From an uncultured Bacteroidales bacterium (GTDB lineage Bacteria > Bacteroidota > Bacteroidia > Bacteroidales > F082), in assembly GCA_947302205.1 (NCBI GenBank), contig CAMYVD010000015.1:1-37917 (forward strand): a stretch of 37,917 nucleotides of DNA. The letters run 5' to 3'. Below the pieces are notes generated by a model, which saw nothing but the letters and a program-made list of their open reading frames with translations, did not search any database and had not been told where the DNA came from. The translations under genes and the position numbers were made by a program. The stretch's first letter is position 1, and every line of letters begins with the position of its first letter. Below are positions 3,488-14,082 of the stretch, one piece after another.

Positions 3488-4764
3488 GTGATTGGATTAT
3501 AGTCGTCATCACGCTTTTTTTCTCGGCTCTGTGCTCGGGGCTTGAGATTGCCTTCAATAGCACCAACAGGCTTCAATTGGAGGTCGATCTGAAGAAAAAT
3601 AAGTTCTCGGCCAAGATCGTCAGCCTGTTTTTCAAACGGCAGTCGCACTTCATTACCTCGTTGCTCATTGGTAACAACATCGCGAACATTGTTTACGGTA
3701 TCGCCATGGCACGATTGCTGCGTCCTGTCGTGGTTTGGATGCTTCCCGCCTCGCTTGAGTTGGAGTTTTTCATTCTGTTGTTGCAATCCATCTTTTCGAC
3801 CCTGATCGTGCTGGTGCTGGCGGAGTTTCTTCCCAAGATCCTGTTCCGCATCAATCCAAACGCCATCCTGTCGTTTTTTGCCTTTCCAACCGTAGTCGTT
3901 TACTATTTGCTCTATCCCTTGACTTTGATCTACTCGGGTGTTGCCGCCTTGATCATCCGGGTGTTTTTCGGCATGAAGGTGGATCAGCAGAAATACCAAA
4001 TCAGCACCGTCGATTTTGATGACTATATCACTGAATATGCCGATCCCAAGGAGGCCGACGAGGACATTCAGCAAGAAATCCAGCTGTTCCAGAACGCCAT
4101 GGACTTCCGTTCGGTGAAATTGCGCGAGTGCATGGGCCCGCGTAACGAAATCGAATCGGTGAAGATCACTGACGACATCCGCTTCATCAAGGATCGTTTT
4201 GAGGAAACCAAACACTCCAAACTGATCGTTTATTCCGATACGATTGACAATATCGTGGGTTACATCCACCTTAACGATGTGGTCAACGCCATTGCGAACA
4301 GCAAGAACCTCACTACTGCCGACTTGGTTAGGCCTATCGATTTTTTCCCGGAAACGTATACGGCCGACCGTCTGCTGAAGCACTTCATCCAAAAGCATCA
4401 GGGTGTGGCGGTGGTCGTCGATGAGTTCGGCGGCACTGCGGGTATCGTCACCATGGAAGACGTGATCGAAGAGATTTTCGGTGAAATTGAAGATGAATAC
4501 GATGAGGAAGAGGAGACCGAAGAAGTGGTCAAGGAAGACACCTACGTGTTCTCGGCCCGTTTGGAGATCGATTACCTGAACGAGACCTATAAGCTCGACC
4601 TTCCTGTGTCGGACGATTATGAGACCTTGGCCGGAATGATTCTTCATTTCTATGAGAACATTCCTGAAGTGGGTGAGGAGCTGGTCATCGGGAACTATAA
4701 AATCAAGGTGCTCAAGGCCACTGACATGAAATTGGAAGAGGTTGAATTGAAGCGTGTTCAGTGA
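3484..4764 (+). CDS. CNNM/CorC (HlyC-type) membrane protein
   Basis: 426 residues. Residues 1-185 form a DUF21/CNNM transmembrane domain with the hallmark CSGLEIAFNSTNR near residue 17 and GNNIANIVYG. A pair of CBS modules follows (about 205-325, with DEFGGTAGIVTMEDVIEEIFGEI), then an acidic linker and a C-terminal CorC_HlyC domain (about 345-425). Members of this family are linked to Mg2+/divalent ion transport or its control; some relatives (GldE) act in gliding. The start overlaps the lptC stop (ATGA). The order lptC, CNNM, ppiD recurs in Bacteroidales. Substrate specificity cannot be read from the sequence. Confidence 0.9.
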   Translation: MSDWIIVVITLFFSALCSGLEIAFNSTNRLQLEVDLKKNKFSAKIVSLFFKRQSHFITSLLIGNNIANIVYGIAMARLLRPVVVWMLPASLELEFFILLLQSIFSTLIVLVLAEFLPKILFRINPNAILSFFAFPTVVVYYLLYPLTLIYSGVAALIIRVFFGMKVDQQKYQISTVDFDDYITEYADPKEADEDIQQEIQLFQNAMDFRSVKLRECMGPRNEIESVKITDDIRFIKDRFEETKHSKLIVYSDTIDNIVGYIHLNDVVNAIANSKNLTTADLVRPIDFFPETYTADRLLKHFIQKHQGVAVVVDEFGGTAGIVTMEDVIEEIFGEIEDEYDEEEETEEVVKEDTYVFSARLEIDYLNETYKLDLPVSDDYETLAGMILHFYENIPEVGEELVIGNYKIKVLKATDMKLEEVELKRVQ

Positions 4765-4793
4765 AAGAAAAAAATAAAGTTGCATCAACTTTA

Positions 4794-4823
4794 TTGTGGA
4801 TTAAAATCCTTTTACTAAATTTG
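4794..4823 (+). promoter_or_regulatory. Promoter of the ppiD-like gene
   Basis: TTG (4794-4796) and TAAATTTG (4816-4823) with a 19-bp spacer match the Bacteroidota -33/-7 pattern. The A+T-rich leader runs to the ATG at 4868, so this gene has its own promoter in addition to any read-through from the operon. Confidence 0.7.
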
Positions 4824-4867
4824 CAGGCTCAAATTTTGAATAATTATTAATTATATAGCATTAAATT

Positions 4868-6991
4868 ATGGCAGCAATTGAAAAAATCAGAAAGCGTTCA
4901 GGATTGTTGATCGCAATCATCGGTCTTGCCTTGTTGGCGTTCGTCCTGCAAGACCTTTTCCAGAGCACTGGTAGACACCGCGAGTACAACGTGGCCGTCA
5001 TCGATGGAGAGAAGATCCCCTACAAGGATTTCGAGGATCTGAAGAACAAGAATCTGGAAAACATGAAGAGAAGCTATGGCAACAGCCTCACTTCCTCACA
5101 GACCTACAGCGTTTACAACAGCACGCTTGAACAGATGATCAAGGATCACATTATGACCAAGGAATACGATGCCATTGGAATGAATGTGACAAGCGATGAG
5201 CTTTACGACCAGTTTGTGGGCGACGAACCTCATCAGTGGGTGGTCCAGAATTTCTCCGACGCCAACGGCAACTTCGACCGTGCAACGCTCGAGAACTACA
5301 TGCAACAGTTGGAAAATGCCCCAATCGAATATCGCACCCAGTGGGTTGATTTCGAAAACGCCGTCAAGGATAATAGACTTCAGACCAAGTTCGAAAACCT
5401 TGTCAAGGCTTCCTATATGGTTCCTGAAAAGTTGGCCAAGAAGTATTATGACAACAAGAACGTGAAGGCTTCGGCTGAAGTGGTGGCTCTGCGTTATTCA
5501 ACCATCCCTGATTCAACCGTTACCGTTACCGACAAGGATAACCGTAAGTTCTACGAGGAAAACAAGTACAAGTACGAAACCGACGAGACCCGTGCCATCG
5601 ACTATGTGGTGTTCGACATCAAGCCGTCAGCACAGGACGATCAAGATGCCCGCGCTTTTGTTGAGGGCATGAAGGCTGACTTTACTGCCACCGACAACGT
5701 GGCCAGCTTCGTCAACGCCAACTCCGACCAGCGTTATGACAGCACTTGGATGGGCCGCACAGCCGTTCCCGCCGCTATCGAAACTGTGGTTTTCGATGAA
5801 GGCAACCAGCCTGGTTTCGTTTACGGTCCATATTTCGACAACGAATCCTACAACTTGGTTCGCATCGTTGACCTGCAGAACCGTGCCGACTCACTGAAGG
5901 CCAGCCATATCTTGATTTCCTATAAGGGTGCACTCCGCAGCATGGACACTGTCAATACCAAGGAAAGAGCTCAGGCGATCGCTGACAGCTTGCTCGTCGT
6001 ATTGAAGAAGAACGCCAAGAACACCGAACTCTTTGGCGAGCTCGCCACTGAGATGTCGGCTGACAAGGCTTCGGCTGAAAAGGGCGGCGATTTGGATTGG
6101 TTCACCGACGGCATGATGGTGTATGCCTTCAACGAGTTCGTGATGGACAATGCAGTGGGTCAGATGGGCGTTGTTGAGACTCCTTTTGGCTTCCACGTCA
6201 TCAAGGTGACAGGTAAGACCGAGATGCAGCCCAAGGCTCGTCTCGCCATCTTGAAGCATGATCTCACCTTCAGCACCAAGACCTATCAGGATATGTTTGC
6301 CGTGGCTAACAAGTTCGTCACTGAAAACCGCACTTTGGATCAGTTCAACGCAGCTGTTGAGGCTGAGGGTATGACCAAGCGCACCATGCCTCGCCTGAAC
6401 GCTTCAACCTATCAGATTACTGGCATCGACAACCCACGTCAGATTGTCCGTTGGGCATTTGATGACAAGACTAAGGTTGGTGAAGTTTCATCCATCTTCG
6501 AACTTGACAACATGTTCGTTGTGGCTGCTTTGACCGAGATCGTTCCTGAAGGCTATGCTCCTATCGAGAAGATTGCCGAGCAGTCGAAGTACCAGATTCT
6601 CAACAAGAAGAAAGGTGAGGTTGCCGTTGAGAAGATGAAGGCTTGTGGCACCGATTACGACCGTATGGTCAGCGAGTTGGGTGCTGAGAGCACTACCGTT
6701 AACGATGTCAACATGGAAAGCCGTGGCGTTGGTAACTTCGGCGTCGAAAGCGACATCGTCGGTACCATCATGGGTATGAAGGACGGCGAAGTGGTCGGTC
6801 CAGTTGCCGGTAACACCAGCGCTTTCATCATCAAGAACGTGAAGATTGCCGGAACACCCGAAGAGGTTGACCTGAGCGCTATCCATAGAGAAAAGAAAGC
6901 CCAGTTCGACAACAGAGTGTTGAACAACGGCGTTTACAACGCTCTCCGCAACAATGCCAAGATTGAGGATAATAGAGTGATCTTCTATTAA
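4868..6991 (+). CDS. ppiD: PpiD/SurA-type periplasmic peptidyl-prolyl isomerase
   Basis: 707 residues. One N-terminal membrane anchor (about residues 13-31, LLIAIIGLALLAFVLQDLF) is followed by a SurA_N/PpiD-type helical chaperone region and a parvulin (PpiC) domain at about 343-450, recognised by SLKASHILISY, the loop AEKGGDLDWF and the end FGFHVIKV. A second, weaker PPIase-like or chaperone segment fills the C-terminus. PpiD-type proteins assist folding of outer-membrane and secreted proteins at the periplasmic face of the inner membrane, which fits the envelope block upstream. Codon use is strongly biased, suggesting high expression. The stop is followed at once by a heptamer array and a strong terminator. 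Confidence 0.92.
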   Translation: MAAIEKIRKRSGLLIAIIGLALLAFVLQDLFQSTGRHREYNVAVIDGEKIPYKDFEDLKNKNLENMKRSYGNSLTSSQTYSVYNSTLEQMIKDHIMTKEYDAIGMNVTSDELYDQFVGDEPHQWVVQNFSDANGNFDRATLENYMQQLENAPIEYRTQWVDFENAVKDNRLQTKFENLVKASYMVPEKLAKKYYDNKNVKASAEVVALRYSTIPDSTVTVTDKDNRKFYEENKYKYETDETRAIDYVVFDIKPSAQDDQDARAFVEGMKADFTATDNVASFVNANSDQRYDSTWMGRTAVPAAIETVVFDEGNQPGFVYGPYFDNESYNLVRIVDLQNRADSLKASHILISYKGALRSMDTVNTKERAQAIADSLLVVLKKNAKNTELFGELATEMSADKASAEKGGDLDWFTDGMMVYAFNEFVMDNAVGQMGVVETPFGFHVIKVTGKTEMQPKARLAILKHDLTFSTKTYQDMFAVANKFVTENRTLDQFNAAVEAEGMTKRTMPRLNASTYQITGIDNPRQIVRWAFDDKTKVGEVSSIFELDNMFVVAALTEIVPEGYAPIEKIAEQSKYQILNKKKGEVAVEKMKACGTDYDRMVSELGAESTTVNDVNMESRGVGNFGVESDIVGTIMGMKDGEVVGPVAGNTSAFIIKNVKIAGTPEEVDLSAIHREKKAQFDNRVLNNGVYNALRNNAKIEDNRVIFY

Positions 6992-7039
6992 GAAGGCAGA
7001 AGGCAGAAGGCAGAAGACAGAAGTCGGAAGACGGAAGTC
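6991..7039 (+). repeat. Seven tandem heptamers (RGAAGNC) after the ppiD stop
   Basis: Starting on the last base of the ppiD stop codon, seven head-to-tail 7-mers can be read: AGAAGGC three times, then AGAAGAC, AGAAGTC, GGAAGAC, GGAAGTC. Degenerate 7-mers of the same family in the opposite orientation (GTCTTCT, GGTCTCC, TATCTTC at 7086-7106) sit directly behind the stop of the convergent C69 peptidase gene. Confidence 0.85.
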
Positions 7040-7042
7040 TAC

Positions 7043-7080
7043 AAGAAAAGGGATGGTTCCAACGAACCATCCCTTTTCTT
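7043..7080. terminator. Bidirectional intrinsic terminator
   Basis: A perfect 17-bp stem (7043-7059 with 7064-7080) closes a 4-nt loop CAAC. The stem starts AAGAAAAGGG and ends CCCTTTTCTT, so a T-rich 3' side exists in both directions. It separates the convergent ppiD and C69 peptidase genes. Confidence 0.9.
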
Positions 7081-7107
7081 ATGCTGTCTTCTGGTCTCCT
7101 ATCTTCT

Positions 7108-8712
7108 TCAGAATCCCATACTGAACCAGTACCAGAACTGGCTTTCCATTTCTCTCCAGGTCTGGCGTGCGGCAGCGGCGAAGTCCTTGGTGTATTGGTT
7201 GAGCACCTTGGTGGCTTCGTCTTTCTTGCCATCGTTGAGCAGGGCTTGGGCTTTCTGCTCCATAGCGGGAATCTCTTCAAAAGCTTTGTCCTCGAGGCGT
7301 TTGGCGTTGCCCATCAGGACGGGTTTGGTACGTCCCCACATCACGGTGGCAAGCTTGTTGGCCTTGCGGTAGTGCCAGATCCAAGCTTCTTCGCGATAGC
7401 GCAACTGACCGCATTTGTCGAAGCCTTCGGGCAGGGTGGTGGAACCTGAGAAGATGGGGATGCGAGGGCTCTGTCCTGGGTTGTCGCAAGCCATCCAGCA
7501 GATTGCGCCAATCTCGTCAGGCACCCAGCTGCGGCATTGGATGATGGTATGGTAGCTGCTCCAGGCCACGGCTACGGTACGCTGGAACTTCACGGTTTCA
7601 GGTGCCAGGAAGTTCAAGGTGCTTTGCATGGTGCCGTTCATCCATGGGTTGGCGATAGGGCTGATGATGGTGTCTTCCTTGACACTGCCGTCGTCTTGGC
7701 GTTTCTTGCTCACCATCTTGATGTTGCGGGTCATGTCCATGTCGGTGCCTTCGTAGGTGCTGCGGAAGAGTTCCATCACCTTGCGCACGTCGACGTTTTC
7801 ATCGGGTTTCACCGAGAAGGGCAGTTCGGGCATGTCGCGGTTGAGGTTCAAAGAAGGAGCCAGTTGGCTGAGGATGAAGAACTCGCGGTCACTGTAGTTC
7901 TTGCCGCCGCCGTACTCGGCACGGAAAGCCTTCCAGAAAATGAACTCGCCTTCGCCGTCCCAGAGGCCGTATTTCTTGGCTACTTTCTCGCAGTTGTCGG
8001 AGCAGTAAAAGTCCTTGCTCTTGCGCTCCAGTTTGCCGATGCGGGCAATGTTGGCGCTAACGCCCACCTCGTCATCGGGAATGCGTTTGGCGGCCCACAC
8101 GCCACCGATTTGGTCCGGACCTTCGCCAAGGATTTCCATTTGCCACACCTCGTTCTTATCGGCAATGGTGATGCATTCGCCGCCGTCACCGTAGCCATAT
8201 TCCTTCACCAGTTTGCCGATGAGTTTGATGGCATCGCGGGCGTTGTCGCAACGCATCAAGGCGACACGCTCAAGCTCTTCAATCATGAACATGCCGTTTT
8301 CGTTAACTAAGGTGTCTGGGCCCGAGAAGGTTGTCTCGCCGATGGCCAGTTGTTTTTCGTTAAGGCAGGGATAAGCGGTGTTGAGGTAGGCATAAGTGTG
8401 TTCTACCTGTGGGATCTCACCGGCGAGTTCCACTTTGCGGTTGTCAAAGGGGTCTTCGGTGTGCATGGTGCCTTTGTACACCTTATGCATCTCGCCTTTC
8501 TCATGATCTGCAGCGGCTTCCCAGCGCATCCAAGTGCGGTAGCGACCGTCGCAAGTGTGAGAGGTGATCACAGAGCCATCGGTGGAGGCGTTTTTGCCCA
8601 CCATGATGCTGGTGCAGCAGGCTCCGACGTACATTTCTTGGTCTTCCTGGGCCTTCACATTGAAGCCGATGAGCAGGAGACCGACTAAAAGTAGTGATTT
8701 GAGTTTGAACAT
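7108..8712 (-). CDS. Secreted C69-family dipeptidase
   Basis: 534 residues. A Sec signal peptide ends at about residue 21 (NVKA-QE). The mature N-terminus carries the Ntn-hydrolase nucleophile motif GACCTSIMVGKNASTDGS; Cys33 (the one before Thr) is the likely catalytic residue, Cys32 the alternative. Further family landmarks are LNEKQLAIGETTFSG, the Cys/Asp-rich GDGGECITIADKNEVWQMEI and VGVSANIARIG. C69 enzymes (PepD/DipA type) cleave dipeptides after self-removal of residues before the Cys. A secreted form suits growth on peptides, like the tryptophanase nearby. Convergent with ppiD. The start at 8712 is the only one giving a signal peptide. Confidence 0.9.
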   Translation of the reverse strand: MFKLKSLLLVGLLLIGFNVKAQEDQEMYVGACCTSIMVGKNASTDGSVITSHTCDGRYRTWMRWEAAADHEKGEMHKVYKGTMHTEDPFDNRKVELAGEIPQVEHTYAYLNTAYPCLNEKQLAIGETTFSGPDTLVNENGMFMIEELERVALMRCDNARDAIKLIGKLVKEYGYGDGGECITIADKNEVWQMEILGEGPDQIGGVWAAKRIPDDEVGVSANIARIGKLERKSKDFYCSDNCEKVAKKYGLWDGEGEFIFWKAFRAEYGGGKNYSDREFFILSQLAPSLNLNRDMPELPFSVKPDENVDVRKVMELFRSTYEGTDMDMTRNIKMVSKKRQDDGSVKEDTIISPIANPWMNGTMQSTLNFLAPETVKFQRTVAVAWSSYHTIIQCRSWVPDEIGAICWMACDNPGQSPRIPIFSGSTTLPEGFDKCGQLRYREEAWIWHYRKANKLATVMWGRTKPVLMGNAKRLEDKAFEEIPAMEQKAQALLNDGKKDEATKVLNQYTKDFAAAARQTWREMESQFWYWFSMGF

Positions 8713-8743
8713 GATGAAAATTCTATTGGATGATTTGAAGTTT

Positions 8744-8769
8744 CAAAGATAGGAAAAATATTTTTCCAA
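8744..8769 (-). promoter_or_regulatory. -7 box and palindromic operator candidate upstream of the C69 peptidase
   Basis: On the minus strand TATCTTTG (8751-8744) matches the -7 consensus. Immediately upstream is a perfect 16-bp palindrome GGAAAAATATTTTTCC (8752-8767), with TTGG at its upstream edge. The -33 spacing is short (about 15 bp), so promoter strength is uncertain. The palindrome lies where a repressor would block polymerase. Confidence 0.5.
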
Positions 8770-8786
8770 AATAAAGAATATGTTCA

Positions 8787-9033
8787 GCGCCCTTTTAGGG
8801 CGCGTTCTTTATGTACTTTTCTCTTGAAAGAAAAGTACCAAAAGTTCAAGGCCGACATGATCGGTTCTTCCGCACGCCTCTCTAAGTGGGTGAGATTCAA
8901 GGCGGGGAGTGCTTTCTTCGAAAGCAAACGCTCCGCTGAAGCTCCGCGCCCCGCCTTGAATCTCAACCCACTTAGTTCGGCTTTGGGCGAGCGCTTCCCC
9001 GCATGTCGGCCATGGCCCGCGCGCCTAGCCCGG
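8787..9033 (+). repeat. Structured GC-rich interspersed repeat, copy A
   Basis: The element reads, in order: palindrome GCGCCCT-TTT-AGGGCGC (8787-8803); hairpin GTACTTTT/AAAAGTAC (8813-8820 with 8831-8838); an outer helix GGCCGACATG (8850-8859) with CATGTCGGCC (9002-9011); a 26-bp inner helix (8882-8907 with 8949-8975, one bulge); a terminal hairpin TGCTTTC/GAAAGCA (8910-8916 with 8920-8926); and a GC-rich tail to about 9033. A second copy in opposite orientation lies at 12139-12487 with helices preserved by compensatory changes. ORFs over it are by-products of the palindromes. It may be a structured RNA, a mobile palindromic element, or a recombination or terminator site; nothing decides between these here. 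Confidence 0.8.
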
Positions 9034-9076
9034 GAGAGGTTCGTCGTTCTTAATGGTAATAAAAAGCTTTTTGGTC

Positions 9077-9373
9077 TCAATCAGCGATGATTTGAACTCC
9101 CATCGTTTGTTCCAGCTTTGTTAGGGTTTCCAGCGACATGTTTTCTTTGCCTTTGAGGATTCTTGAGACATATTGCTGGGTGCAGCCCAACCGTTGGGCC
9201 ATGGAGTTTTGCGTCAGTTGTTCTTGTTTCATAAACAACAGCACCTTCACGGCTATGTGTTGTGAGTGTCGCAGCCATGCCTTGTTTTCACGCCGCCACT
9301 CCGCTTCACCTTTCCAGGCCGAAGGTGTTTCGCTCTGGTGTGATTCCAGATAATCAAGTGTTTTCTGTTTCAT
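9077..9373 (-). CDS. XRE-family HTH protein, HigA-like antitoxin
   Basis: 98 residues. The C-terminal half is a standard XRE/Cro helix-turn-helix (LTQNSMAQRLGCTQQYVSRI followed by KGKENMSLETLTKLEQTMG, about residues 53-95). The N-terminal half is charged and contains AWLRHSQHIAVKVLLFM, as in Bacteroidales HigA-type antitoxins. Its start overlaps the end of the preceding gene by 4 bases (ATGA), a toxin-first order usual for HigBA. The candidate operator palindrome upstream of the pair fits autoregulation. Its partner is interrupted by an amber codon, so the pair may be inactive. Confidence 0.8.
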   Translation of the reverse strand: MKQKTLDYLESHQSETPSAWKGEAEWRRENKAWLRHSQHIAVKVLLFMKQEQLTQNSMAQRLGCTQQYVSRILKGKENMSLETLTKLEQTMGVQIIAD

Positions 9374-9933
9374 TTGTTGTTGCTCAATAGTTCATTTGTG
9401 TAATCTTCAAATCCTTCAGCGTCTACAACTCCTTCTTCAATTAACAAGTTTCTAACTTGTTCCATCTTTGCAAGTTCTTTGAGTGTGTGATCACGCTCCT
9501 GCATTGTGCGAGTCAATTTGATGGCTCCTCCTGTGATGATGTAGTGACCAGGTTCTAGTTTGATGGCGTAAAGACGAAGCCATGAAGCGTGTTCCTCGCG
9601 GTTTTGTAACCGAGCCTTTTCTTTGCCTAACATCATTTCCACTGTGCGGTTGTTCTCAAGTGGACGAAACAAGTGGTCAAGATTGGCGTCGGGAGATATG
9701 TCCAAAATAAGACACTCCAATTCTTCGCTATCCTCGATGGTGTCATAAATGGCTTGATCTACGTCAGTAATCTTAAAATACGATTCTAGATCAGAGAGAT
9801 TCTCTGTAAAGAAATTCCACAACTATTCGGGGTTGTTCCACTGGTTAAAAACTATCTGGAGGGCGTTGTCGCTCTCTCCATCGTATCTGACCGCCCAGAG
9901 TCTGTTGTCATCAAGGATTTTGTCGAAAGTCAT
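9370..9933 (-). pseudogene. HigB-like partner gene interrupted by an in-frame amber codon
   Basis: Reading from the ATG at 9933 gives MTFDKILDDNRLWAVRYDGE to ...FNQWNNPE, then TAG (9825-9823), then in the same frame LWNFFTENLSDLESYFKITD and on to ...DYTNELLSNNK at 9370, 188 codons in all. Both halves look like one protein: I recall a Bacteroidales family of about this length, with YAIKLEPGHYIITGGAIKLT, that precedes an XRE gene and has a Trp where the stop is (TGG to TAG). A 150-residue product from the TTG at 9822 is possible, but it would lack the N-terminus and sits 110 bases behind the natural start. No catalytic residues were identified. Either a nonsense mutation, suppression, or a sequencing error. 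Confidence 0.65.
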
Positions 9934-9950
9934 CGTGGTTAATTTTGACG

Positions 9951-9991
9951 CAAAGATAAGAAAAAATTCTAAAATACAACTATAAGTTGTA
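9951..9991 (-). promoter_or_regulatory. Promoter and palindromic operator of the HTH pair
   Basis: On the minus strand TATCTTTG (9958-9951) is a good -7 box 18 bases before the ATG at 9933. A perfect inverted repeat TACAACT-ATA-AGTTGTA (9975-9991) covers the -33 area and is the natural binding site for the XRE protein of the operon. Confidence 0.6.
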
Positions 9992-10053
9992 ATATTATTT
10001 ATAAAACGCTCAAATTGGGACCAATGACGGACTGCTAACATTTAGACCTTTGT

Positions 10054-10085
10054 TTTGTAGTTTGCTCAAAAAATGATTATCTTTG
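10054..10085 (+). promoter_or_regulatory. Promoter for the restriction-modification operon
   Basis: TTTG (10054-10057) and TATCTTTG (10078-10085), 20-bp spacer. Transcription would start near 10092, leaving a leader of about 260 nt before the endonuclease start at 10351. A 10-codon ORF (ATG at 10096) lies at the head of that leader. Confidence 0.6.
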
Positions 10086-10207
10086 CATCATTAACTATGA
10101 GATACAATAGAACTGAAAGAAAGAAATAAGACAACTAACATATTATAAATCATAGCGTTTGCTAATTATTCGGTACTGCTTCAGGAATCTGCAAATTTCA
10201 AAACAAG

Positions 10208-10342
10208 TATTGATTACGAATAAGTCGGCGAACGTCCGTGCGTTAGCGTGGACGGAGACTTATCAATCAATACGGGCTTTGCAGAGCCTCTGGAGCGTGG
10301 TAGGTCAAAATCCACGCTTTTTTGTGGCTCTCTCAAGCCCGT
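10208..10342 (+). ncRNA. Two adjacent multi-helix hairpins in the leader of the endonuclease gene
   Basis: Hairpin 1 stacks three helices: TATTGATT/AATCAATA (10208-10215 with 10265-10272), ATAAGTC/GACTTAT (10220-10226 with 10257-10263) and CGTCC/GGACG (10233-10237 with 10250-10254). Hairpin 2 abuts it with ACGGGCTT/AAGCCCGT (10272-10279 with 10335-10342), AGAGCC/GGCTCT (10283-10288 with 10326-10331) and GCGTGG/CCACGC (10295-10300 with 10312-10317). All helices are perfect. Hairpin 2 ends 8 bases before the ATG. No T-run follows, so it is not a plain terminator. The flanking 10086-10207 is A+T-rich without a supportable gene. Function inferred only: translational control or a stand-alone RNA. 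Confidence 0.6.
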
Positions 10343-10350
10343 TGGTCTGA

Positions 10351-11232
10351 ATGATAGGCATGCGCCACAAAGAAACGCACATGTGGTCGAGACAAGATGA
10401 ACTGGATTTCTTCAGATACGCCATCAATCTGTCCAGTATTGAAAACCTGATGGTTAATGTAAAAGGCAAGTATTATGCTTTTCAGCCAAAAAACACGGAA
10501 GCAAAAGTAAGTACACCTCAATCTAGAAATAGCTTTGTTGGTTCAACAACAGAGAAATGGTGTAAGAATCTTTTTTCCCAGATTGCCAGACAAAACGGCT
10601 TGTATGCAGTTAATGGAGTGGTTTGTGAAGAGATTGGTCTGTCAAGACAAAGCTCTGCCGATATGGCTTTTTGTACCTCTGAAAGTACTTTTCAAAGACC
10701 GGAAAACATCAAATTGATTTTCGAAATTAAAATGGGCATCGTTAATAACTATCTTTATTGTGACGATGACGATTTTGAATTTTGTGGAGATTACACTACT
10801 CATAAGGGTAATCCCTCTTTGCTGCGCTCGGACAGTATGCTAAAAGCCATTGGAAAATCAATCAACTTGCGTGTTGATAGTTCTCGGGCAAAAAAGATTC
10901 CGATTATCATTCTCGGTAATTCACCGATAACCACCAGTTATGTGAAAAAGGTTGATTGCTTGAAACAAAGCGGAGTTATTCAAAAGTTTATCTCGCTTTA
11001 TCCGAATCCAACAAACCAAGACTTTATAAAAGAATCTCCAGAAAGAGGATTTGAAACCTTCGGTTCTATTGAGGAAATAGAAGAGTATATTGGTCAGATA
11101 TTAAACTCAAATATGAACTATTTCAGTTCAATGATGAGCAATAGAGATTTGGGAAGAATTATTTCTATTGCTAATTCTGAATCAACGGATGAACTCAAAG
11201 GGCAACGTTTCATTGAAATGCTGAAGCTATGA
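10351..11232 (+). CDS. Putative type II restriction endonuclease
   Basis: 293 residues, not recognised as a named enzyme. A PD-(D/E)xK-type core is visible: SADMAF with Asp104, followed 21 residues later by LIFEIKMG with Glu125 and Lys127, spaced as in many type II nucleases. It overlaps by ATGA the methyltransferase that follows, which is the main support for the call. Other starts at codons 4 and 11 are possible; MWSRQDELDFF (codon 11) looks like a plausible true N-terminus. The gene is clearly richer in A+T (many TTA, ATA, AGA codons) than the core genes either side, suggesting horizontal transfer. Expression may be limited by the hairpins directly upstream. Confidence 0.7.
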   Translation: MIGMRHKETHMWSRQDELDFFRYAINLSSIENLMVNVKGKYYAFQPKNTEAKVSTPQSRNSFVGSTTEKWCKNLFSQIARQNGLYAVNGVVCEEIGLSRQSSADMAFCTSESTFQRPENIKLIFEIKMGIVNNYLYCDDDDFEFCGDYTTHKGNPSLLRSDSMLKAIGKSINLRVDSSRAKKIPIIILGNSPITTSYVKKVDCLKQSGVIQKFISLYPNPTNQDFIKESPERGFETFGSIEEIEEYIGQILNSNMNYFSSMMSNRDLGRIISIANSESTDELKGQRFIEMLKL

Positions 11233-12101
11233 AGAAAGGAACCGAAACATCTTCTTTCGGCGTTTCAACAAGAGAAGGACATAATGCCGAAAAGTTTTAC
11301 AAGTCAAACCTATATCAAGGTATTGGCCTAGTTGAGTGTGGCAAAACCGAAGATGCCGTTTTGGACGATGGCCTGGTTAATATAATTTACACTCATTCTT
11401 CGGAAGAAATGAAGGAATTGTCAGATAACTCCGTCCACTTGATGATAACGTCTCCTCCCTATAATGTGACCAAAGAGTATGATCAAAACCTAACGCTTCA
11501 GCAGTACCTTCAGTTGATTGAAAAGGTGATGAGGGAAACCTATCGTGTTTTGGTAAATGGCGGTAGAGCCTGTGTCAATGTGGCAAATTTGGGTAGAAAG
11601 CCTTATATTCCTTTGTCTGATTATATTGGAAGAATAATGACGGGAATTGGGTTTAATAATAGAGGACAGATAATATGGGACAAAGCGGCTTCATCGGGAG
11701 GCTCATGTGCTTGGGGGAGTTGGAAAAGCGCTGCAAATCCAAGTCTTCGTGATGTTCATGAGTATATTTTAGTTTACAGTAAGGGAAGTCTTAGTCGTAA
11801 AAAAGGTAAGGATACGATTACCAGGGAAGATTTTCTCGAATGGACTAAAAGCATATGGAAGATGAATACAGAAAGCGCCAAGAGAGTGAAACATCCAGCA
11901 CCTTTTCCTGAAGAGCTTCCTCACAGGTTGATTAATCTTTATAGTTTTGAGGGGGATGTTGTTCTGGATCCTTTTATGGGGAGTGGAACCACTGCCGTTG
12001 CAGCTTTAAAAAACAAGCGCAAATTTGTCGGTTACGACATTTCGGAGGAGTATGTCAAGGTTGCGAATGAACGAATTGCCAACGTAGGCAAACTCTTTTA
12101 A
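11229..12101 (+). CDS. Type II DNA methyltransferase (N4-cytosine or N6-adenine)
   Basis: 290 residues. Motif IV is TSPPYN (residues 74-79) and motif I is DPFMGSGTTAVAA (from Asp247), in the order IV then I of beta-class amino-methyltransferases. SPPY suggests N4-cytosine but N6-adenine members also carry it. KFVGYDISEEYVKVANERI closes the SAM-binding fold. It would protect host DNA against the product of the upstream overlapping gene (ATGA). The recognition sequence cannot be told from the sequence. A+T-rich like its partner. The N-terminal 50 residues have no recognised motif. Confidence 0.9.
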   Translation: MKKGTETSSFGVSTREGHNAEKFYKSNLYQGIGLVECGKTEDAVLDDGLVNIIYTHSSEEMKELSDNSVHLMITSPPYNVTKEYDQNLTLQQYLQLIEKVMRETYRVLVNGGRACVNVANLGRKPYIPLSDYIGRIMTGIGFNNRGQIIWDKAASSGGSCAWGSWKSAANPSLRDVHEYILVYSKGSLSRKKGKDTITREDFLEWTKSIWKMNTESAKRVKHPAPFPEELPHRLINLYSFEGDVVLDPFMGSGTTAVAALKNKRKFVGYDISEEYVKVANERIANVGKLF

Positions 12102-12138
12102 AGGTTTTTCTAGTGTTCAGTATTAAGCACGACTCACT

Positions 12139-12487
12139 GCCCCGAACTGGGTGCGTGGGCCAAGGCCAAAAATCGGAGGGGCGGCTGCCCAAAGGACGAG
12201 CTAAAAGGCTTGAGCCTCAGGGCGGGGCGCGGACTGCGACCGCGAGCGAAGCGTGGCGGGAAGCAGGGAGCGTTTGCCTTCGGCACGAAGGCACTCCCCG
12301 CCTTGATGGCTCAGCCTTTTAGAACGGCCGTGCGGTGGGCCGATATTTTTGGCCTTGATTTTTTAGCTTCGCTGATTCTGCTGCGCCTCAGCAAAGCTCG
12401 AGCAAGCTCGGCTTTGCGTTCGGCTTAAGCAGAATTGGTACTTTTCCATCAAGCCAAAAGTAACAAGAAACGCGCCCTCTAGGGCGC
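12139..12487 (-). repeat. Structured GC-rich interspersed repeat, copy B
   Basis: Read on the minus strand from 12487: palindrome GCGCCCT-AG-AGGGCGC (12487-12472), hairpin TACTTTT/AAAAGTA, an extra hairpin absent from copy A (ATTCTGCT/AGCAGAAT enclosing GCAAAGC/GCTTTGC, about 12374-12435), outer helix (12340-12357 with 12161-12176), inner helix (12296-12322 with 12201-12227), terminal hairpin TGCCTTCG/CGAAGGCA (12275-12282 with 12286-12293) and a tail matching copy A (GGCC.TGGCCC.CGC.CC). ORFs through it are spurious. It begins about 40 bases after the methyltransferase stop and could also end that transcript. Confidence 0.8.
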
Positions 12488-12506
12488 TACAAAAAGAAAA
12501 ATCTTC

Positions 12507-12535
12507 TTGTTTTTCCGAAAAATTTCGTATCTTTG
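12507..12535 (+). promoter_or_regulatory. Promoter of the tryptophanase operon
   Basis: TTG (12507-12509) and TATCTTTG (12528-12535), 18-bp spacer. The inferred start near 12542 leaves a leader of about 160 nt that contains a 19-codon ORF. Confidence 0.7.
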
Positions 12536-12558
12536 ACCGACTTTTGAAAGCATAATTC

Positions 12559-12618
12559 ATGCAAAAAATCATCGCCAAAGCGATCTACCTTAACGTCAAG
12601 GAACGTGACCGTTTCTGA
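12559..12618 (+). CDS. Candidate 19-residue leader peptide upstream of tryptophanase
   Basis: ATG at 12559, product MQKIIAKAIYLNVKERDRF, stop TGA at 12616. It starts about 17 bases after the predicted transcription start and ends 87 bases before the tryptophanase ATG. Placement is like TnaC of enterobacteria, but there is no Trp codon, so the TnaC stalling mechanism cannot simply be assumed. After the stop, a weak pairing AAGGGT/ACCCTT and T-runs (12630-12665) are visible. Could also be a chance ORF. Confidence 0.35.
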   Translation: MQKIIAKAIYLNVKERDRF

Positions 12619-12705
12619 GCTCCCGCTTGGAAACAAGGGTTGTTTTTATGCTTTTTCACCCTTAAAGTAAAATCTTTAAATCTTGAATTTTTAAATCTAT
12701 AAATC

Positions 12706-14082
12706 ATGGAATTACCATTTGCAGAAGCGTGGAAAATCAAGATGGTCGAACCCATTAAGAAATCCACTAGAGAACAACGTGAAAAGTGGCTCGAAGAAGC
12801 CCATAACAACATCTTCATGCTGAAGAGCGACTATGTGTACATTGACTTGCTGACTGACTCTGGCACCGGCGCCATGAGCGACCGTCAGTGGAGCGCCATG
12901 ATGATGGGCGATGAAAGCTACGGCGGCGCTCGTTCGTTCTACCATATGAAAGACACCATCACCGAGATCACTGGTTTTGAGTATGTCATCCCCACCCACC
13001 AGGGTCGTGCTGCTGAGAATGTGCTGTTCAGCTACCTCGTGAAGCCTGGTATGGTTGTCCCGGGCAACGCCCACTTCGATACCACCAAGGGCCACATCGA
13101 GAGCCGTAAAGCCTTTGCCATCGACGTCACTGTGCCTGAGGCCTACGACACCCAGTTGGAAGTGCCTTTCAAGGGTAATGTCAGCCTCGAGAAACTCGAG
13201 AAGGTGCTCGTCGAGAATAAGGGCAACGTGCCGTTCATGGTTCTCACCGTCACCAACAACACCGTTGGCGGTCAGCCCGTGAGCATGCAGAACGTCCGCG
13301 AGACCTGCGCCCTCTGCCATAAATATGGCGTGCCGGTGATCGTGGATAGCGCTCGTTTCATCGAGAACTGCTACTTCATCAAGACCCGCGAAAAGGGTTA
13401 CGAAAACAAGACCCTTCGTGAGATTGCCAAGGAAATGTACTCCTACGCCGATGCCATGACCATGTCGGCCAAGAAGGACGCTCTCGTTAACATGGGCGGC
13501 TTCATCGCTACCAACAAAAAGGAATGGTACGAAGGTGCCAAGTTGTTCTGCATCCCGTTTGAGGGCTTCCTCACCTACGGTGGTATGAACGGCCGTGACA
13601 TGGACGCTCTGGCTGTCGGTCTGAAGGAAAACATTGAATTCGACATGGTCGAAACCCGCATCAAACAGGTGCATTACCTTGCCTCCAAACTCGATGAATA
13701 CGGCATTCCTTACCAGCGTCCTGCTGGTGGCCACGCCATCTTCGTCGATGCTGACAAGGTGTTGACCAACATCCCGAAGGAAGAGTTCCCGGCTCAGACC
13801 TTGACCTGCGAGCTCTATCTCGAAGCTGGCATCCGTGCTTGCGAAATCGGCTATGTCCTCGCTGACCGTGATCCGGTCACCCGTGAGAACCGCTTCGGTG
13901 GCAACGACTTCGTGCGTCTGTGCATCCCACGCCGTGTGTACACCAACAACCACATGGACGTGATTGCCGCTGCCCTGAAGAACGTCTACGACCGCCGCGA
14001 CACCATCAAACGCGGTCTGGAGATCACTTGGGAAGCCGAGCTGATGCGCCACTTCACCTGCCAGTTCAAGAGACTGGGATAA
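12706..14082 (+). CDS. tnaA: Tryptophanase (tryptophan indole-lyase)
   Basis: 458 residues, full length for the family. A PLP-dependent beta-eliminating lyase that turns L-tryptophan into indole, pyruvate and ammonia in the cytoplasm. Visible landmarks: YIDLLTDSGTGAMSDRQW (about 45-62), IPTHQGRAAEN, DSARFIENCYF, and MSAKKDALVNMGG, in which Lys257 is the Schiff-base lysine by comparison with Lys270 of E. coli TnaA. I recall Bacteroides tryptophanase as close throughout (MELPFAE.WKIKMVEPI start). Tyrosine phenol-lyase is the nearest alternative but is less similar. Codon bias is strong, suggesting high expression. Followed 4 bases later by a membrane-protein gene. Confidence 0.92.
   Translation: MELPFAEAWKIKMVEPIKKSTREQREKWLEEAHNNIFMLKSDYVYIDLLTDSGTGAMSDRQWSAMMMGDESYGGARSFYHMKDTITEITGFEYVIPTHQGRAAENVLFSYLVKPGMVVPGNAHFDTTKGHIESRKAFAIDVTVPEAYDTQLEVPFKGNVSLEKLEKVLVENKGNVPFMVLTVTNNTVGGQPVSMQNVRETCALCHKYGVPVIVDSARFIENCYFIKTREKGYENKTLREIAKEMYSYADAMTMSAKKDALVNMGGFIATNKKEWYEGAKLFCIPFEGFLTYGGMNGRDMDALAVGLKENIEFDMVETRIKQVHYLASKLDEYGIPYQRPAGGHAIFVDADKVLTNIPKEEFPAQTLTCELYLEAGIRACEIGYVLADRDPVTRENRFGGNDFVRLCIPRRVYTNNHMDVIAAALKNVYDRRDTIKRGLEITWEAELMRHFTCQFKRLG

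Follow-up and report, generated by a model that had tools for sequence, protein, structure and literature searches.

Opposed pairs of a folded, covarying element bracket different gene cargo at shared sites in a Bacteroidales genus

The window analysed here is the whole 37,917-nt stretch of contig CAMYVD010000015.1, from an uncultured Bacteroidales bacterium. Between a C69-family dipeptidase gene and the tryptophanase gene tnaA, it contains a putative restriction-modification (RM) unit and a helix-turn-helix (HTH) gene, bracketed by two inverted copies (A and B) of a folded element whose family is termed E below. An earlier sequence-only reading had described A and B as inverted copies of a structured element with covarying helices. 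Both copies proved real, and every string quoted for them was located in copy A on the plus strand and in copy B on the minus strand. Going beyond that description, our main finding, held with about even confidence, is that A and B together mark the two ends of a gene cassette. Genes held between E copies are called cargo; L-numbers denote loci and G-numbers genomes.

The locus

Table 1. Coordinates of the two E copies, the genes between them and the flanking features of the window.
Feature	Position	Strand	Basis and remarks
Left flanking gene, C69-family dipeptidase	7108..8712	-	Pfam PF03577, E-value 1.6e-51; outside the proposed cassette
Outer hairpin 0, GCGCCCT TTT AGGGCGC	8787..8803	+	Directly outside left core; varies by site
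E copy A core	8814..9051	+	Profile match 2-242, fold, located strings
Copy A head hairpin	about 8813-8838
Copy A stem arms	8850-8859 / 9002-9011
Copy A inner stem	8882-8891 / 8966-8975
Copy A terminal hairpin	8910-8916 / 8920-8926
Copy A tail	to 9051
HTH_3 protein, antitoxin- or control-protein-like (cargo)	9077..9373	-	PF01381, E-value 6e-10; PADLOC PDC-M64C
150-aa protein (cargo)	9370..9822	-	Weak PDC-M64B similarity (PADLOC, E-value 1.6e-4); no Pfam family
293-aa putative type II restriction endonuclease (cargo)	10351..11232	+	Overlaps methylase gene
Type II DNA methyltransferase, N6/N4 class (cargo)	11229..12101	+	PF01555, E-value 2.7e-49; PADLOC MTase_II, E-value 5e-118; PDB methylases
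E copy B core, inverted	12125..12462	-	Profile match 2-242; covariance model match 12201-12322; fold
Outer hairpin 0, GCGCCCT AG AGGGCGC	12472..12487	-	Outside right core
Right flanking gene, tryptophanase tnaA	12706..14082	+	NF053783, E-value 1.5e-265; outside the proposed cassette

Copy A has its head hairpin facing outward and its tail facing the cargo. In copy B an insert separates the head hairpin (about 12435-12462) from the main stem, and copy B is longer than copy A partly through this insert; similar inserts are seen at L051 and L053. The insert is hairpin-rich (window about 12364-12434, L051 6310-6585, L053 3269-3582), and similar sequence recurs in the flanks at other loci, so the insert may represent a second small repeat family.

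Searches of Pfam, PADLOC, NCBIfam, PDB sequences and PHROGs found nothing matching the 293-aa protein. It has 1813 homologues at an E-value <= 0.001; one among the 120 listed is named a restriction endonuclease by UniRef, and homologues in distant phyla among those listed are about 55-57% identical. The 150-aa protein is perhaps the partner of the HTH protein.

The outer hairpin had been described as a fixed end of the element. We find instead that it lies outside the core and varies by site, being GCCTTGTCAGGC at L082 (the site of a type I RM system) and GCCCTTAGCAGGGC at L080, while many E copies carry no such hairpin. Given these site-to-site differences, the GCGCCCT hairpin was rejected as a fixed part of the core.

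Fold and covariation of E

Copy A folds far better than its shuffled counterparts, both as DNA (z -10.1) and as RNA (z -9.5), with 0/200 shuffles as good in each case; for the RNA fold of copy B the value is z -6.3 (0/100 shuffles as good). RNAalifold applied to 48 aligned E copies yields 39 pairs, 17 of which show at least one double change. With shuffles that keep the relatedness of the copies, and with a structure derived from the same 48-copy alignment, standard pairs occupy 96.7% of cells (88.7 when shuffled), double-change cells number 122 against a shuffled mean of 27.7, and the covariation score is 0.230 against 0.095; none of the three was reached in 500 shuffles. Further pair types number 34 against 30, a level reached in 17/500 shuffles. 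Sliding the 3' partner by 1-3 columns lowers pairing to 33-47%.

The head hairpin was counted separately, taking the CTTGA-loop form and leaving out other loops such as ATTGA. This gave 66 heads, 33 of them distinct. The two loop-side pairs, which draw on three and four pair types, are Watson-Crick in 33/33; some mismatches occur among the four outer stem pairs. By inspection, short E variants lack the inner hairpin but still have the head, the outer stem and the tail.

The earlier proposal of a selected RNA or DNA fold is supported by the pairing level, the double changes and the slide controls across the 48 copies. Parts of its detail required revision. The outer helices, thought to be entirely different in the two copies, are in fact homologous arms, GGCCGACAT and GGCCAAAAAT, with GGCC in common. 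As for AACGCTCC, described as fixed, its AAAC is invariant in the 48 copies and the following G nearly so, but CTCC is missing in several.

Apart from a partial tRNA gene at 1-54, on the minus strand and cut by the window end, a scan of the whole window with Rfam 15 gave no match at gathering score. E was therefore rejected as a known RNA family.

Distribution of E

The genome that contains the window holds five full E copies. Besides the two of the window, contig 47 has two and contig 64 has one, close to its end. The tails of the contig 47 copies face each other, separated by 2-40 bases according to the profile chosen. By blastn, E copies are present in 42/149 relatives, all of the same genus (1/60 genera). 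A covariance model of the inner 96 positions of E matched 40/99 genomes of one Bacteroidales genus; in an order-wide sample, searched with strict filters that may lose weak matches, it matched 3/295 genomes, all of that genus (1/183 genera). The further copies sought in related genomes thus exist, and their stems stay complementary. One exact core pattern was found in 24 stretches of named records, all Bacteroidales or Bacteroidia metagenome-assembled genomes, and many of these record titles give ruminant sources (goat, sheep, yak, red deer, water buffalo); we regard the genus as one of ruminant gut bacteria. E is a genus-level family of elements of about 240 bp with a conserved, covarying fold.

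Pattern scans of viral contigs gave 0 matches and scans of phage records were likewise fruitless, as was the first pattern tried on genome contigs (0 matches). No description of E was found in the literature consulted, including passages of PMC3733652, PMC11834463, PMC8649781, PMC9024848 and PMC3874152, and a literature search with the exact sequence returned no paper on E by title.

Arrangement of E copies

The 62 loci compared, with the duplicate L076 left out and pieces under 15 bits dropped, contain 106 E copies forming 44 neighbouring pairs. All 27 opposed pairs have heads out and tails in, and none has heads in; the remaining 17 pairs run in the same direction (12 and 5) and belong to array loci. 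By our own grouping on flank similarity, the opposed pairs represent about 15 sites. Their spacing extends from a fused pair (-4) up to 15.2 kb, with cargo of 1-15 kb.

In the arrays, same-orientation E copies stand 0.3-4.5 kb apart with small open reading frames (ORFs) between them (L074, L075, L077, L081, L084 and L085), an integron-like order. Among the ORFs scanned from L074, L075 and L077, some carry LPD3, PBECR1 or PBECR3 domains.

E pairs may also be empty, as at L010 and L069. At L100 (about 5315-5544) and L069 (7501-7797) the head half of a plus-strand E is fused with the head half of a minus-strand E; these fused elements are probably remnants left after loss of cargo and tails.

Cargo between opposed pairs

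Chosen cargo ORFs were scanned, and the names used here denote family matches. RM genes between imperfect inverted repeats, with no transposase among the proteins scanned, are present in the window, L045, L082 and L083, and L073 also holds RM cargo. The window itself has an N6/N4 methylase with a putative endonuclease, plus the HTH gene and its neighbour. L045 and L046 carry an EcoRI-type methylase and a GmrSD/HNH endonuclease, which make up a predicted type II RM system at L045, L072 an Eco57I-type methylase, and L073 an Eco57I methylase with a IIG-like protein. L082 holds type I R, S and M proteins together with AbiH-like and AAA_13 proteins; L083, an apparent 5-methylcytosine (m5C) RM system, combines C5 methylases with REase_II and Vsr; and L084 has a C5 methylase, AAA_21 and PDC-M33. 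The remaining matches comprise SspC, PbeA and DUF4007 (L081), AAA_21, HNH_4 and a DdmD-like protein (L074), SMODS/DncV-like and radical-SAM-like proteins (L085), UvrD-type helicases (L057, L041, L087) and PBECR1 (L068). On these matches, many of the E-bracketed packages are likely anti-virus systems.

At L080 (G041:C57) a type II CRISPR locus lies at 4399-13545, between two opposed E copies. Its cargo comprises Cas9 (1572 aa), Cas1 and a CRISPR array, with 33 repeat copies reported in units of about 77 bp. Cargo outside defence, or with no assigned role, comprises an agmatine-deiminase-like PAD_porph protein (L048, L056 and L088; L051-L053 share their inner flanks), a CN_hydrolase (L065) and a TSP3-like protein of 551 aa (L060).

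A DUF3267 gene (putative zincin peptidase) sits directly inside one end at L074 (3394-4074), L081 (18107-18745) and L085 (15143-15829), and most other cargo differs beside this retained gene.

Pfam was used to scan 54 proteins encoded between or beside E copies. Apart from Cas1 in the CRISPR cargo and, below the cut-off, a zinc ribbon in a UvrD helicase, none matched a family of transposases, integrases or recombinases. Neither tnsB nor tnsC was found among these 54 proteins, no search aimed at tns genes having been made.

Exchange of cargo at shared sites

In related species, opposed pairs that occupy one and the same chromosomal site enclose different cargo. Across the shared sites compared, flanks match at 75-96%, whereas the cargo is wholly different at three and largely different at two. 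Thus L057 and L065 have flanks 84.6-88.7% identical and one cargo protein each; L082 and L083 have flanks at 93.6-95.8% and 7 versus 8 cargo proteins; the window and L060 have flanks at 82-86% and 6 versus 1; and L045 and L072 have flanks at 75-82% and 3 versus 4. In none of these comparisons did blastp match the cargo proteins. The stretch to the left of the left E of L060 also differs from the window. The right flank of the window and L060 clustered with L048-type flanks, a result that we set aside as a probable effect of the insert adjoining the head.

Two of the four borders of the L057/L065 and L082/L083 pairs were read base by base. The left match of L082/L083 continues through the E tail to GCGAAGCCATGA and then breaks, and the right match of L057/L065 starts at the tail end, TCCTGCTTA. 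The right match of L082/L083, taken from blastn, extends about 30 bp beyond the E edge given by the profile.

Empty pairs, half-deleted fused pairs, hairpin scars and sites devoid of E all exist. tnaA was matched in 94/99 genomes, and 30 loci were fetched around it. Seven of these (L102, L104, L106, L107, L110, L111 and L115) keep the C69-family dipeptidase gene next to tnaA or nearby with no full E; two are the E-bearing places of the window and G008, and the other 21, having no peptidase match, were not used. A solo head hairpin and an outer hairpin remain at L102 and L104, the empty site at L106 has one degenerate copy of outer hairpin 0, and L115 has a head-like remnant with another gene. 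Thirty loci were compared at a second site: 9 with both flanking genes and no E, 5 with E, and 16 lacking a match to the other flank. L172, the version of this second site on contig 17 of the same genome as the window, has no E, and there a degenerate head-like hairpin accompanies another small gene.

The GCGCCC hairpin present at both window borders could be a target duplication, but it also resembles a part of the element. At the second site, by inspection, the fit to a target duplication is limited to an ambiguous TAAT/TAATT. The head hairpin was rejected as a plain target duplication: with its TTGA loop in opposite orientation at the two ends, it does not form a direct repeat.

E pairs enclose related PAD_porph cargo at L048-L053, at L088, whose flanks are unrelated, and at L056, where the pair stands across the same flanking gene. 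These cases lend slender support to the notion that whole units may move.

The head hairpin in other genera

The head hairpin followed by CAAAAG(A/T)TCAAG was found in 8/395 Bacteroidota genomes (7/171 genera). A reversed control pattern matched in no row, and the genome of the window has no head that fits this strict pattern. The pattern also occurs in one Parabacteroides distasonis record and in plasmid pILYOP01 of Ilyobacter polytropus (2/72,556 plasmid records). Examination of 23 such loci gave 8 inverted pairs (two of them the same place), all with heads out and 215-1050 bp apart, and other loci had a single head in the stretch examined. Inverted head-out pairs with short spacers are thus present in other genera and in another phylum (L238 in P. 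distasonis, L239 in Ilyobacter, L240, L246, L248, L256 and L259), which argues that the paired-head design is wider than its apparent use in cassettes.

Discussion

We give roughly even weight to the proposal that copies A and B delimit, in inverted orientation, a non-autonomous cassette, and that E is a folded end at which recombination or transposition is carried out in trans. Such an end would be recognised as a folded strand (a hairpin of DNA or RNA) and not as double-stranded sequence, because both sides of the stems vary, whereas the head loop and the single-stranded motifs further in are retained. The enzyme moving the cassettes would act in trans, since no recombinase of their own was found among the cargo proteins scanned, and defence genes would be favoured cargo because they gain from rapid exchange. 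Tentatively, and with less confidence than in the cassette ends themselves, we can picture a genus-wide system in which an unknown fold-reading enzyme, acting in trans, inserts whole defence operons, as large as a complete CRISPR-Cas9 locus, at fixed chromosomal sites and removes them again, the same end-reading principle operating without cargo in other Bacteroidota and in Fusobacteriota.

Several observations weigh against this proposal. No enzyme that would move the cassettes turned up among the proteins scanned. The left match of L057/L065 stops inside E, the left copy of L065 being truncated. Exchange is not always complete: L043 retains remnants of the L045 cargo; L045 is related to L046 and has two DNA pieces (436 and 107 bp) in common with L072; L083 and L097 share 463 bp; the DUF3267 gene is common to L074, L081 and L085 at 97-98%, with three more ORFs common to L074 and L081. 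A clean target-site duplication was not established. The shift seen at L056 crosses one gene only, and movement to new sites rests mainly on L088. Some of the cargo is non-defence. The loci were picked because they hold E, and in 10 of the 27 opposed pairs one member aligns to <150 of the 223 positions of the profile; these ten comprise short variants, truncations, one tail only (L041) and one weak match (L084, 17 bits). G-U outnumbers A-C by 71 to 9 on the folded strand, the strand on which the structure was predicted, but 56 of the 71 fall within two pairs. Finally, homologous recombination of an incoming E copy with a resident one would predict exchange at fixed sites just as well.

Such homologous recombination is a serious rival, the strongest of those considered, and it may contribute. 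Taken as the whole explanation it is less probable than the proposed folded end: E copies would be passive homology patches kept for another role, their cargo swapped by ordinary recombination with no dedicated enzyme. The swaps at fixed sites, with homology stopping at or inside E, are what this predicts; the truncated and fused E copies at L065, L069 and L100 resemble products of recombination or slippage, and no recombinase of the element was found in the scanned proteins. However, the sequence of E drifts while its fold is kept, and homology-based exchange wants the opposite. It also leaves unexplained the fixed head-out orientation, the related cargo and E pair at unrelated flanks (L088 versus L048), and the paired heads in other genera and a fusobacterium. 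A different origin, in which E copies are what is left of the ends of a conventional transposon family that has lost its transposase genes or keeps them elsewhere in the genome, would account for inverted ends, empty sites and cargo devoid of transposase. We consider it improbable, as E is about 240 bp with a conserved fold and drifting stems, unlike short conserved terminal inverted repeats, no autonomous copy was recognised among the loci read, and the Y1 transposase (PF01797) was not found in the genome of the window and several E-rich genomes, partly incomplete.

A function in expression is the least probable of the explanations considered, and we regard it as very doubtful. E would then be a structured RNA, or a terminator or insulator shielding foreign cargo from neighbouring transcription, with one needed at both borders. 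Its strong RNA folds and intergenic placement fit such a role, as do the GC-rich hairpins adjoining T-rich stretches and the several copies that, by inspection, directly follow an ORF end. Against this, E at the second site sits between two divergent boxes (TATnTTTG, which we take to be a -7-like motif), where no terminator is needed; inspection shows no clear T-run after the head hairpin; no Rfam family reaches gathering score; and the exchange boundaries and scars are left unexplained.

As folded ends around swappable accessory genes, the E copies recall integron cassettes, whose attC sites are, according to passages of PMC9024848, conserved in secondary structure rather than sequence. Some E loci are gene-E-gene-E arrays of a single orientation, with E copies 0.5-1.1 kb apart (L074, L075, L081). 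In contrast to attC sites, which are direct repeats after single genes, window-type E copies form inverted pairs around whole operons; the attC-like direct orientation applies to the 17 pairs of array loci, against 27/44 inverted. E is also distinguished by its length of about 240 bp and its separate head hairpin. The integron integrase model TIGR02249 gave no match over cut-off in 13 E-bearing genomes, several of them incomplete, while weaker matches were seen in 13/13 of these and likewise in 14/14 control genomes. With no IntI over cut-off in these 13 genomes, an integron proper was rejected.

Passages of PMC3874152 describe RM units bounded by imperfect inverted repeats that are apparently mobile by themselves, with no known mobile element. 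The window shares with these Furuta/Kobayashi units the presence of RM genes between inverted repeats, but E ends are common to many species of a genus, have a covarying fold and bracket varied cargo, including type I RM and CRISPR-Cas9. Tn7-like transposons, in the passages of PMC8649781 available, have defence-rich cargo and ends made of arrays of TnsB sites of about 20 bp, and they enclose core tns genes. E pairs are like them in holding cargo rich in defence genes, and differ in that no tns gene was seen among the 54 proteins scanned.

Repetitive extragenic palindromes (REPs) are described in passages of PMC3733652 as palindromic intergenic repeats of 20-40 bp with an enzyme that reads single-stranded DNA. 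E resembles the REP/REPIN elements of RAYT and TIRYT systems as a palindromic intergenic repeat, but is far longer than a REP. To our knowledge, REPs carry no cargo. The Y1 transposase family PF01797 is present in 70/99 genomes of the genus, and was not found in the E-bearing genomes G038, G041, G049, G051 and G054 or in that of the window, some of which are incomplete. A REP/RAYT or IS200/IS605 system was rejected, as the Y1 (HUH) transposase does not follow E across the genus.

Defence genes turn over fast in bacterial genomes, and the vehicles are often unclear. One structural signature that shows the borders of many cassettes makes this turnover countable across about 100 species. The unnamed cargo is a place to seek new defence systems, and the search for the missing enzyme has a defined object. 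Ends read by their fold and working as inverted pairs around operons would be intermediate between the attC sites of integrons and the ends of transposons.

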